Below, one piece after another: positions 7,879-35,718 of a stretch of 64,000 bases of DNA. The position numbers and the translations under genes were made by a program. The notes beneath the pieces were generated by a model that searched no databases, was not told the origin of the DNA, and saw nothing but the letters and a program-made list of their open reading frames with translations. The stretch's first letter is position 1. Each line of letters opens with the position of its first letter. Source of the DNA: Methanocaldococcus bathoardescens (GTDB lineage: Archaea; AGJL01; Methanococci; Methanococcales; Methanocaldococcaceae). The stretch lies in assembly GCF_000739065.1 (NCBI RefSeq), contig NZ_CP009149.1, positions 1,054,001-1,118,000 on the forward strand. The letters are read 5' to 3'.

Positions 7879-8940
7879 ATGAATACTTTTGCTGAGATTC
7901 AAAAGTTGTATAGGGAATACTATAGCTTTGCAATAAAAAACAATATCCTTGAAATTCCTGAAGGTATTGAATATAGAGAATTTGGATACGGTTATTTAAA
8001 AAAAGTTGATAATAGAAACCTATCTTTTAAAAATGAAAGAGAATATAAAGATTGGGTATTAAAAAACGCTCCCCTGCACTTTTACAAATCCTTAGCTTAT
8101 ATGCTATATCCAAACAAATCAGGCGGAGCGGCTAAAAAAGGTATATTTAAGAGAGAATTAGCGTTTGACATAGATGTACATAAAACAAAAAGATGTAAGC
8201 ACGATGAAGATTGGATTTGTAAATATTGTTTAGAAGAAGCAAAAAATCAAGCTATTTACTTAATTGAAGAATTTTTAATTCCTGATTTTGGTTTAAATGA
8301 AGAAGATTTAAAGATTGTGTTTAGTGGAAATAGGGGATATCACATCTATATAAAACCAAAAGATGAAAAAATTAGAGACATTATTGAAAACTACTCAAAA
8401 GAGGATAGGAGATTTTTAATAGACTATATATTAGGAGAAAATTTAAATCTAAATTCAGTTGGTAGCGGTTGGAGAAGAAGATTGATAAAAGTAATTAAAG
8501 AAAGAGATAAAAGGATATCAACAAAAAAACTTGAAAAAGAAAAAAATTGGAAAAAAGTTATTGATAATTTAAAGAGCAAAAATAAAATTTACAATATTAT
8601 CGAAGAAACTAAAAATAAACTTGAATTGGATGAAAAAGTTATGGATGATGATATAAGGCTTTTGAGGGTTATAAATTCTCTACATGGCTATACTGGCTTT
8701 ATTGTTAAGCCATTGAATAGCTTAGATAAGTTAAAAAAATTCAATCCATTAAAAGATGCCGTATTTAAAAATTTTGAAAATAAATTGTATGAGATTAATA
8801 TATTTGATGATAGAAAATTCGAAATTGAAATATGTGGAAAAAAATACAACAATAAAAGTAAAAAAATTACCGGCTCTGCTTTGCTATATTTATTTGGGCA
8901 TAATATTAAATTTGAATTACTTGAATCCTATAGGATTTAA
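7879..8940 (+). CDS. priS: DNA primase small (catalytic) subunit
   Basis: PriS (353 aa) makes primers for replication together with PriL. The catalytic aspartates are in ELAFDIDVH (Asp97, Asp99). A Cys106/His108/Cys114/Cys117 cluster (CKHDEDWICKYC) is the family's zinc knuckle, and SGNRGYHIYI is the conserved nucleotide-binding motif. I chose the ATG at 7879 after GGGATAGGTAT instead of a TTG five codons upstream. It is divergent from mfnF and convergent with the DUF166 gene. Confidence 0.95.
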   Translation: MNTFAEIQKLYREYYSFAIKNNILEIPEGIEYREFGYGYLKKVDNRNLSFKNEREYKDWVLKNAPLHFYKSLAYMLYPNKSGGAAKKGIFKRELAFDIDVHKTKRCKHDEDWICKYCLEEAKNQAIYLIEEFLIPDFGLNEEDLKIVFSGNRGYHIYIKPKDEKIRDIIENYSKEDRRFLIDYILGENLNLNSVGSGWRRRLIKVIKERDKRISTKKLEKEKNWKKVIDNLKSKNKIYNIIEETKNKLELDEKVMDDDIRLLRVINSLHGYTGFIVKPLNSLDKLKKFNPLKDAVFKNFENKLYEINIFDDRKFEIEICGKKYNNKSKKITGSALLYLFGHNIKFELLESYRI

Positions 8941-8992
8941 CGCACTAATGGTATAAAACTTTAAGAAAAAGTTAATCAAAAATTAGGGTATA

Positions 8993-9015
8993 CCAATAGG
9001 GCGTAGCCCCTATGG
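8993..9015. terminator. Hairpin between convergent priS and DUF166 genes
   Basis: CCAATAGGGC, a GTA loop and GCCCCTATGG form an imperfect hairpin with a GGGC/GCCC core. It overlaps the stop codon of the minus-strand gene and lies 53 bp beyond priS. A role as a bidirectional terminator or transcript-end stabiliser is a guess; no T-run follows it immediately. Confidence 0.4.
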
Positions 9016-9672
9016 AATTTGAATTACTTCAATGCCTTTAACTAAAATCTTTCCAGCTTTTGTTTTCTTTCCCTCTTTCTCTACAAAAAGCCTTATTTTT
9101 CCAGCCCTACAAAAGTGTTGAACTCTCAAACCAATATCTATTAAAGTTTTGTCATTAAACTCTCTTCCAATAAATTCTTTTAGTGTTTCAGAAGTTGAAC
9201 CACATGGAGCCTCTCTTAAAACATCAATTTTTTCAATTTTATTATTTTTAATGTATAATTTTACTTTTGGTCTTCCAAAATATTTTAGAAATTCTTTTAA
9301 TTGAGGATAATTATCTAAATAATCTTTTAGTTCATCTTTGTCGATATCACACATTAAATATGGACAGAAAGCATTTCCAAAACTCTCTACCTGTTTTTTA
9401 AATCCTTCTCCTTTCCAAGCTCCAACAAGAACAAAAGCTTTATTGTTGAGCTCTTTTATCTTTCTAACAAGTTCATAGGTTAGGTCAGGATTTAGAGTGT
9501 AAGTTATAAATAAATCATAATTTTTTAATTTTTCAATTGTATCTTCACTTATTGTTATTTCATCAAAATCTCCATAATATTTAACAGTTATAAAATCATA
9601 TGGAAATTTTGATTTAATTGTTTTATAAGCCCTTTCTCCATAAGTTCCATCGGTTAAAATAGCAACCTTCAC
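9010..9672 (-). CDS. DUF166 family protein
   Basis: This 220-aa cytoplasmic protein begins VKVAILTDGTYGERAYKTI from a GTG with a GGTGA site upstream. It looks like the archaeal DUF166 family, sometimes loosely annotated as thymidylate-synthase-like without proof. Conserved Cys-containing segments appear at the C-terminal half: EAPCGSTSETLKEF and LRVQHFCRAGKIRLF. The Rossmann-like N-terminus and these cysteines suggest a redox or metal-binding protein, but I do not know its function. Confidence 0.75.
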   Translation of the reverse strand: MKVAILTDGTYGERAYKTIKSKFPYDFITVKYYGDFDEITISEDTIEKLKNYDLFITYTLNPDLTYELVRKIKELNNKAFVLVGAWKGEGFKKQVESFGNAFCPYLMCDIDKDELKDYLDNYPQLKEFLKYFGRPKVKLYIKNNKIEKIDVLREAPCGSTSETLKEFIGREFNDKTLIDIGLRVQHFCRAGKIRLFVEKEGKKTKAGKILVKGIEVIQIP

Positions 9673-32116: not shown

Positions 32117-32737
32117 ATGGGAAAATATAAGAAATTTTTTGCTATAGCTGTTTGTTCTCTACTGTTATTTACTGTTTATTTTTATAGAGACCCAGATAGG
32201 GATATAACAAAAGGAAATAACATCATCTTATCCCCAGCCGATGGAACTGTAGAGTATATAAAATTCTACAAAAATGGAGAAGCAGAAGTTTTTAAAGATG
32301 GAAATTACTATGTTCTAAATGTTTCAAAATACTTTCCAAATGGTTGTTATGTTATAGGCATTTTTATGTCTCCATTAGATGTGCATGTCAATAGAGCCCC
32401 AATAAGTGGAAAAGTTGTATATACAAAGCATATAGATGGGAGTTTCTATCCAGCATTTTTAAAAGATGTAGAAAAAATAAATGAAAGAAATGTAGTAATA
32501 ATAAAAAATGGTTCTGATTATATTGGAGTTGCCCAAATAGCTGGTTTTGTTGCAAGAAGATGCGTTCTCAATATAAAAGAAGGAGATTATGTTGAGATGG
32601 GAGAAAGAATTGGTAAAATAAAGCTTGGCTCACAAACAGCAGTTATAATCCCATCTAATTACAATATAACAATTAAAGTGGGAGAGAAGGTCTATGCAGG
32701 ACAGACAATCGTTGCAGTCAAAAATACAGCTAATTAA
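32117..32737 (+). CDS. asd: Archaetidylserine decarboxylase (small PSD type)
   Basis: This 206-aa protein has an N-terminal membrane segment ([17 protein letters not shown]) and the PSD core: [44 protein letters not shown] and GYVARRC-like [11 protein letters not shown]. The self-cleavage site is [10 protein letters not shown]; its Ser becomes the pyruvoyl group of the alpha chain. It should convert archaetidylserine to archaetidylethanolamine in the membrane. GGTGATT precedes the ATG. The next gene overlaps its 3' end by 44 bp. Confidence 0.88.
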
Positions 32738-33590
32738 TGAGATAAAAGAGAGGGTTTCAAGAATTAGAGAGAATTTAGGGTTAAGTAAAGCGTTATTTGA
32801 TATAGTAGATATTAAAGTAGATGGGAAAATACTAACCATTTACACAAAAAACAGAAGTGATAAATCTACAATTATAGGGCCTGGAGGTTGGGTGGTTGGA
32901 AAATTAAGGGAGGAGATGAAAGATAGATTTGAAATTATAAGAGTTGAGGATTATACTGACAAAGTTTTATTTGAAAAAAGGGTAGAGACAATTAAATCTC
33001 TATTTAATGATGATATTTTTCAAGATATCTGTAACTATTTTTTATATGGAGAAATTCCAAAAAAGAAGAGAGATGTTATCTGCTTAGTCCAATGTCAGTA
33101 TGATTTATATGTTGTTGATATTTTATCAAATATTTTTAATGTTAAAGCATTAACTTATGATTTCCCAGCTTTAGTTCCACAAAAAACAAAAGAAAAGATT
33201 TTAGATTTTTTAAATAAAAGGAATATAGAGCATGAGTTTTTAAAAATAAACTTTACAAAAGATGAAATAAAAAATCTTATAAATTCATTCCCTTGTGGAT
33301 TTTTAAAAGATAAAATTATAAAAGATGGATTAAAAGGAGAGATATTTACAAGCTGTTTAAATTGTGGGATTTTTAAATATGACAACGGAATAATTATAAA
33401 CTTTTTTGAGCTATTTCCAATAAAAATTAAAAAGGATGAAAATTATTTAAATTACTGTCCTTTATGCATCCAAAGCTGTAAAATTGAGAAAAATAAAGAG
33501 AAATTTATAAAAAAGGTTGTTAAAGATGTTTACAGAGGATTTAAAGAGCCAACAGATGCTTCTGAAGAGATATTATCAATAATAAAGTAA
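32694..33590 (+). CDS. KH-domain protein with cysteine-rich C-terminal region
   Basis: This 298-aa protein has a KH-type RNA-binding motif near residue 65 ([18 protein letters not shown]). A middle alpha/beta domain follows ([38 protein letters not shown]) that resembles a PP-loop fold lacking the SGG loop. The end holds CLNCGIF and CPLCIQSCK, a possible metal site. RNA modification or sulfur chemistry would fit this build, but that is inference. The ATG at 32694, inside asd, follows GAGAAGGT; the overlap implies coupling. Confidence 0.7.
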
Positions 33591-33626
33591 TTTGTGGCGG
33601 TATTAATTATTCTATTTTCCGAATGA

Positions 33627-33785
33627 AACTTTTTAAGAAAGTTGAACAAAATCCTTAACGGATTTAGTTGAATAATCGTAGATTATTCAACTTCCCTGCA
33701 ACCATAGGTTGCAGTGAATGTAGCTGGAAAGCAGAGCTTTCCATTTCATAAAAACTAACACTTCTGAGCATAAGCAAGGAAGTGT
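33627..33785. repeat. Array of six consecutive hairpins
   Basis: Six perfect stems follow one another: AACTTT/AAAGTT (33627-33643), AAATCC/GGATTT (33649-33665), a 12-base stem around GTA (33666-33692), CTGCAACC/GGTTGCAG around ATA (33696-33714), TGGAAAGC/GCTTTCCA around AGA (33725-33743), and ACACTTC/GAAGTGT around 14 bases (33758-33785). They fill most of the 222-bp gap between the KH gene and mfnD. There is no coding capacity in this gap. Each stem has a different sequence, so this is not a simple repeat. Confidence 0.7.
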
Positions 33786-33812
33786 AAATTAAAAGATTCC
33801 TACGGTGATAAA

Positions 33813-35718
<1,906 letters not shown>

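Follow-up and report, generated by a model that had tools for sequence, protein, structure and literature searches.

What the dense row of hairpins between a KH-protein gene and mfnD of Methanocaldococcus bathoardescens represents, and how it came to lie there, is the question raised by this locus. The window, meaning the whole 64-kb stretch of DNA analysed, corresponds to G000:C1:1054001-1118000 of the 1,607,556-bp M. bathoardescens genome (G000). The upstream gene, which has its KH-protein name from the first reading, lies at 32694-33590 and encodes 298 aa without a Pfam match. The downstream mfnD-like ATP-grasp gene lies at 33813-34688 and encodes 291 aa (PF02655, 5e-43). Both genes and all parts of the locus described below are on the + strand. 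The feature between them is probably a nest, three levels deep, of small mobile DNA hairpin elements that are non-autonomous, and most likely selfish rather than a functional RNA.

The hairpin row and its nested parts

In a Watson-Crick hairpin scan, H1 (33627-33643) and H2 (33649-33665) each have a perfect stem of 6 bp with a loop of 5 nt. H3 (33666-33692) has a perfect stem of 12 bp, and H4 (33696-33714) and H5 (33725-33743) have perfect stems of 8 bp, all three with a loop of 3 nt. The six-hairpin row at 33627-33785 reported in the initial annotation was thus recovered, as five perfect stems and a sixth hairpin, H6 (33758-33785), with a stem of 7 bp and a loop of 14 nt. The shuffle check proposed for hairpin density also came out in its favour, with 40 perfect non-overlapping pairs in 164 bp versus a mean of 2.2 and a maximum of 27 in dinucleotide shuffles (n = 5000; 0/5000 reached it). 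The row is the densest 164-bp stretch of perfect stems in the window, the next unrelated stretch having 22, and shuffled 64-kb windows peak at 19-29. RNA folding of 33627-33790 gave -56.6 kcal/mol on the + strand versus -27.7 ± 3.5 kcal/mol in shuffles (z = -8.25), and the fold of the - strand is 7.6 standard deviations below shuffles.

What the earlier reading missed is the pairing of the six hairpins as three nested mobile repeats, H1/H6, H2/H5, and H3/H4, set as brackets within brackets. The outermost unit, the core, has the structure TGAAACTTT-AAG-AAAGTTTCA, a linker, ACACCTCC-loop-GGAGGTGT, and AAATTAA. In the window, it begins with H1 as its first hairpin (33625-33643, GAAACTTTTTAAGAAAGTT), the outer TC foot of which is moved to 33746, while bare cores (L024, L030-L032, L124, L132, and others) have an uninterrupted GAAACTTTAAGAAAGTTTC. 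The remainder of the core (33746-33792) consists of this TC foot, the linker, H6, and the AAATTAA end. The second unit, the module, is about 45 bp long and is composed of RA, h1 (8-10 bp), AGC, h2 (7-8 bp), and RTT. Its first part in the window (33644-33665) comprises GA, the H2 5' arm ACAAAATCC (33646-33654), a loop, and the 3' arm GGATTT (33660-33665), at which element B interrupts. Its remainder (33719-33745) comprises the TGT foot of H2, the AGC spacer, H5, and TT, and carries an R1 covariance-model match at 33716-33744. Element B is built of h1 (9-12 bp), TCC, h2 (7-8 bp), and TGGA; the 53-bp copy in the window (33666-33718) reads H3, TCC, H4, and TGAA.

The claim that what is repeated here is the architecture held up, as the units have in common two hairpins with a 3-nt spacer, and the stems covary. 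Unrelatedness of the arms is correct within the locus, where they differ, but each piece is a dispersed multicopy repeat in the genome or in relatives. With 33591-33812 as query, 17 matches were obtained in G000 and further ones in 13 of 40 relatives. The congener matches cover 32-75 and 129-208 of the query; these parts directly adjoin in several copies (e.g., G000:768691-768806), where the middle 53 bp are absent. The query middle alone (75-129) matches dozens of copies in the sister-family genomes G024, G028, and G016. Since congeners match the outer parts and the sister family only the middle, the row is a Methanocaldococcus repeat with a foreign repeat inside. Core matches number 27 in G000 and 26 in G008, and module matches 21 and 22, respectively. 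With a covariance model, module copies were found in 19 of 61 genomes, all Methanococcales (up to 55 copies in G028), and none in the 25 genomes outside this order. Double-hairpin copies are numerous in G015, G024, G028, and G030, whereas G011, G014, and G017 yielded none. Element B is single-copy in G000, was not found by sequence search in 13 other congeners, and has dispersed copies up to 93% identical in G024, G028, and G016; its presence in G000 would be best explained by transfer from a sister-family donor. Exact-pattern scans for B, run on species genomes and on IMG/VR viral contigs, gave one Planctomycetota contig and twelve scattered viral contigs, which were judged as chance matches, the pattern being short.

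Comparisons of loci (L numbers) rest on sampled genome regions. In these, bare cores, cores with modules, and modules with B were each seen as separate dispersed copies, and each outer level occurs elsewhere without the inner ones, the orthologous locus included. Cores carry one module, two (L028, L039, L164, L165), or three in tandem (L026, L027). The three-level nest is also present in G024, where L045 and L050 consist of a core, two modules, and B within the second module.

Insertion sites and flanking duplications

The window copy of B interrupts the 3' arm of H2 at 3 nt from the foot (ACAAAATCC..GGATTT^TGT). Other B sites in the h1 3' arm of modules are GCGAAATC..GATTT^CGC and ACGAAAACC..GGTTT^TCGT, and a second repeat of G024 hosts B too (TATAGTYGTGTGCGGAAT^TTTTTAAAC). 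Exact excision of the window copy leaves a perfect 9-bp H2 stem and no target duplication. Among 30 distinct copies, 12 have flanks that join into a perfect hairpin once B is removed, with a stem of 8 bp or more that extends 3 nt or more beyond the junction. When left and right flanks were mismatched in 1000 trials, 1.2 copies on average and never more than 5 did so, and excision one further base off on either side restored none. This stricter test replaced an earlier one with a lenient threshold (14 versus a control mean of 8), which was too weak. As exact excision restores the hairpin, B inserted without duplicating its target, which in those copies is the 3' foot of a hairpin. Sixteen of the 30 copies are not within a perfectly restored hairpin, and most of those sit in another repeat. 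In G024, the B copies at L046, L049, L054, L055, and L185-L190 all occupy the same position in another repeat (TATAGTYGTGTGCGGAAT^TTTTTAAACTTATTTAT) and were probably amplified as a composite.

The module obeys the same placement rule in the core, where its site is between AAAGTT and TC in the 3' arm of the first hairpin, 2 nt from the foot (AAAGTT^TC). A concrete rule can thus be given, by which a unit inserts within a hairpin's 3' arm at a distance of 2-4 nt from the foot.

The orthologous KH-mfnD gap is 15 nt long in G007 and 79 nt in G008, both without the element, holds a core with one module but no B in G001, and holds the core, module, and B in the window. These states suggest the order of insertion, although relatives could in principle have lost inner units precisely. 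No positive evidence was found for the multi-protein DNA platform or transcript-stability cassette considered in the initial annotation, and the gap exists in G007 and G008 without any element. The H2 stem differs by paired changes between G001 (AAACTC/GAGTTT) and the window (AAATCC/GGATTT), so exchange or conversion of the module is possible. The H6 loop of the window is inverted with respect to the usual core and the G001 ortholog (score 10 inverted versus 4 direct); one other core (L150) has an inverted loop of this type, versus 50 direct. An inversion of this sort would be the expected outcome if a DNA hairpin were re-copied or resolved. The gap of G006 (L062) has different palindromic elements beginning at the KH stop codon, and given these the gap may be an insertion hot spot.

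The core at the KH-mfnD border lies between the two copies of a direct duplication, roughly 27-38 bp in length. The mfnD start region is present twice around the element in the window and in G001, and once in G007. The left copy (33598-33624) is a decayed mfnD start region with KH-mfnD intergenic bases, which aligns with the right copy and with the single-copy empty site of G007. The right copy (33804-33831; GGTGATAAAGTG... to mfnD codon 7) has the intact mfnD start inside. The two copies are diverged, and their similarity alone has p = 0.014. The KH gene retains its stop, and in mfnD the start codon is preserved together with the GGTGAT motif upstream. A bare core at gatB of G008 has a duplication of about 53 bp on its two sides, in which the start codon is contained, and the empty site with one copy is found in five congeners (G000, G001, G004, G006, and G007). 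Duplications were detected at 28 of 60 core loci (p < 0.02 each versus mismatched flanks; about 1 expected), in a comparison that is conservative because the control includes orthologous pairs. They are mostly 27-60 bp long, some at 3' ends of tRNAs or genes. As the duplications copy the gene end, both neighbouring genes survive, and the present insertion was most likely tolerated for the reason that its duplication preserved both of them.

Some further core sites were recorded. Bare cores lie directly after tRNA genes at L031 (G000) and at L131 and L133 (both G008); at L133, the 3' end of the tRNA recurs beyond the core. Many cores (L111-L117, L127, L134-L138, L147, L148) are bracketed by a further palindrome (CCATAGGGC..GCCCTATTGGTAT at left, ATACCAATAGGG..CCCTATGG at right), which is an outer nesting level, the direct duplication then being outside that palindrome. 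Also, a second, degenerate member of this group of repeats is present in the window at 8908-9040, with AAAACTTTAAGAAAAAGTT, a linker, and a CCAATAGGGCG..CCCTATGG hairpin, and is flanked by a direct duplication of about 25 bp (AATTTGAATTACTTGAATCC; score exceeded in about 1% of random pairs).

Folding as DNA or as RNA

Covariation was computed from 35 module sequences, nearly all extracted by core position and not by pairing. In the module stems, 98.1% of cells are paired, versus 79.5% after shuffling and no more than 49% after sliding. Both-sided changes number 75, versus only 6 G-U cells. Selection on RNA usually leaves more G-U pairs, and their scarcity would fit either DNA hairpins or arm-to-arm correction. 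Cores have no preferred orientation to the flanking genes (6 same, 9 opposite, 4 mixed rows, one locus being counted twice). An Rfam search of the 64-kb window at gathering cut-offs returned only two tRNAs and no family match at the hairpins. The few G-U pairs, the occurrence in both orientations, and the inverted H6 loop together argue for DNA hairpins rather than for a functional RNA.

The structured RNA put forward in the initial annotation would be a repeat-built one, now under selection in the KH-mfnD transcript for stability, processing, or translational control. The fold is indeed very stable, and the distance of 15 nt between the genes in G007 implies probable co-transcription, with the hairpins in the mRNA. 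However, besides the few G-U pairs, the copies in both orientations, and the lack of an Rfam match, the gap lacks the element in G007 and G008 and has other contents in G001 and G006, and such a function is very unlikely. A stack of terminators is not supported by the bases themselves, as no T-run follows any of the hairpins and the only run of five T is inside H1.

Arm-to-arm correction in palindromes that do not move could also produce G-U-free covariation. In that case, the inner units never transposed; the palindromes would grow in place by template switching and arm correction, with loci kept alike through gene conversion. The inverted loop and the paired changes of the stem seen in the orthologous comparison, the few G-U pairs, and the failure to find a mobilising enzyme (see below) are all in line with this. 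Growth in place cannot, however, import B, a unit of 53 bp with exact junctions that is so close to copies of another family and went undetected in the 13 congeners searched, and single-copy empty sites exist for the core. It is therefore regarded as improbable, and nested insertion of mobile DNA hairpins is the preferred explanation.

Mobility and related repeats

The mobile form of the elements may be DNA that adopts hairpin folds while single-stranded, as could happen at a replication fork. The core would enter unique DNA via widely staggered or re-copied ends, with long and variable duplications as the product, and double-hairpin units would then take as target a position after TT or TTT at the foot of a hairpin already present. 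With such targeting, palindromes would accumulate within palindromes.

No mobilising enzyme was identified, neither Y1 transposase nor reverse transcriptase is present in G000, and movement inside a single species was not seen. Y1_Tnp (PF01797) is absent from G000 and from the B-rich G024 and G028, and was found in only 5 of 36 relatives. RVT_1 (PF00078) was found in 1 of 36 relatives (G028) and in none of the genus. A retroelement moved by a resident reverse transcriptase was rejected, RVT_1 missing where it is needed.

Mobilisation by a Y1 (HUH) transposase or RAYT was considered as well, the elements then being PATE-like derivatives of IS200/IS605 or of the REP/BIME type. The hairpin ends and the duplication-free insertion of B resemble this class, in which insertion occurs without target duplication, but the core does not share this trait and its insertions bear long duplications. 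To our knowledge, Y1 elements do not make long target duplications. With Y1_Tnp absent from G000, G024, and G028 in addition, this origin is very unlikely. Like REP, BIME, and REPIN, the elements are short intergenic palindromes in mosaic clusters, and M. bathoardescens is listed in a REP survey (PMC12306157); they differ from these in being nested and not side by side, and in the lack of a RAYT/Y1 enzyme in G000. With DDE MITEs they share small size, A+T-richness, absence of coding capacity, and target duplications. In contrast to MITEs, the core is without terminal inverted repeats (ends TGAAAC.../...AAATTAA), and its duplications of about 27-60 bp are variable, neither short nor fixed.

The repeat groups of M. 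jannaschii are reportedly MJRE1-3. Of the known kinds, these palindromic repetitive elements (Suyama, Lathe, Bork 2005, FEBS Lett 579:5281, as cited in PMC2229807 and PMC2996958) come closest, likewise being dispersed palindromes in Methanocaldococcus, as the copies in G000 and G008 are. The likeness is judged by their description in the citing papers, and element B differs in coming from the sister family. The double-hairpin elements of Allomyces and sponge mitochondria (Paquin 2000, as cited in PMC2800124) appear analogous, with two adjacent short hairpins, dispersed multicopy and often tandem occurrence, complementary stem changes, and, for Allomyces, no report of a flanking duplication. 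The organisms are unrelated, and here there is nesting inside hairpin arms and long duplications around the core. The similar anatomy in fungal mitochondria is of interest, mobility being likewise unexplained there.

No description of the nesting and the insertion rule was found in the literature searched, outside which most subscription papers lay. The repeats may, though we hold this only tentatively, represent an undescribed system of Methanococcales, in which double-hairpin units insert without duplication into the 3' foot of hairpins, giving recursive nests, and the outermost unit inserts with exceptionally long and variable duplications. If true, a hairpin-targeting transposition activity would exist that is distinct from Y1 transposases, DDE MITEs, and reverse transcriptases. 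The gene-sparing duplications of 27-60 bp and the loop inverted between orthologs suggest the formation of DNA hairpins in living cells of a hyperthermophile, where some enzyme would handle them. With the rule and the natural before-and-after sites, the palindromic repeats of these particular archaea become open to direct test.

At least one copy lies within a gene. At about 1501-1580 of L205 (G000:356875-359951), a core with module is in frame inside an intact ORF of 412 aa, which we take to be LarC-like, and adds the peptide SFDEMESEAFQLQIRRICSTFSKSFM. This agrees with the in-gene copies for which Suyama 2005 is cited in PMC2229807 and PMC2996958.
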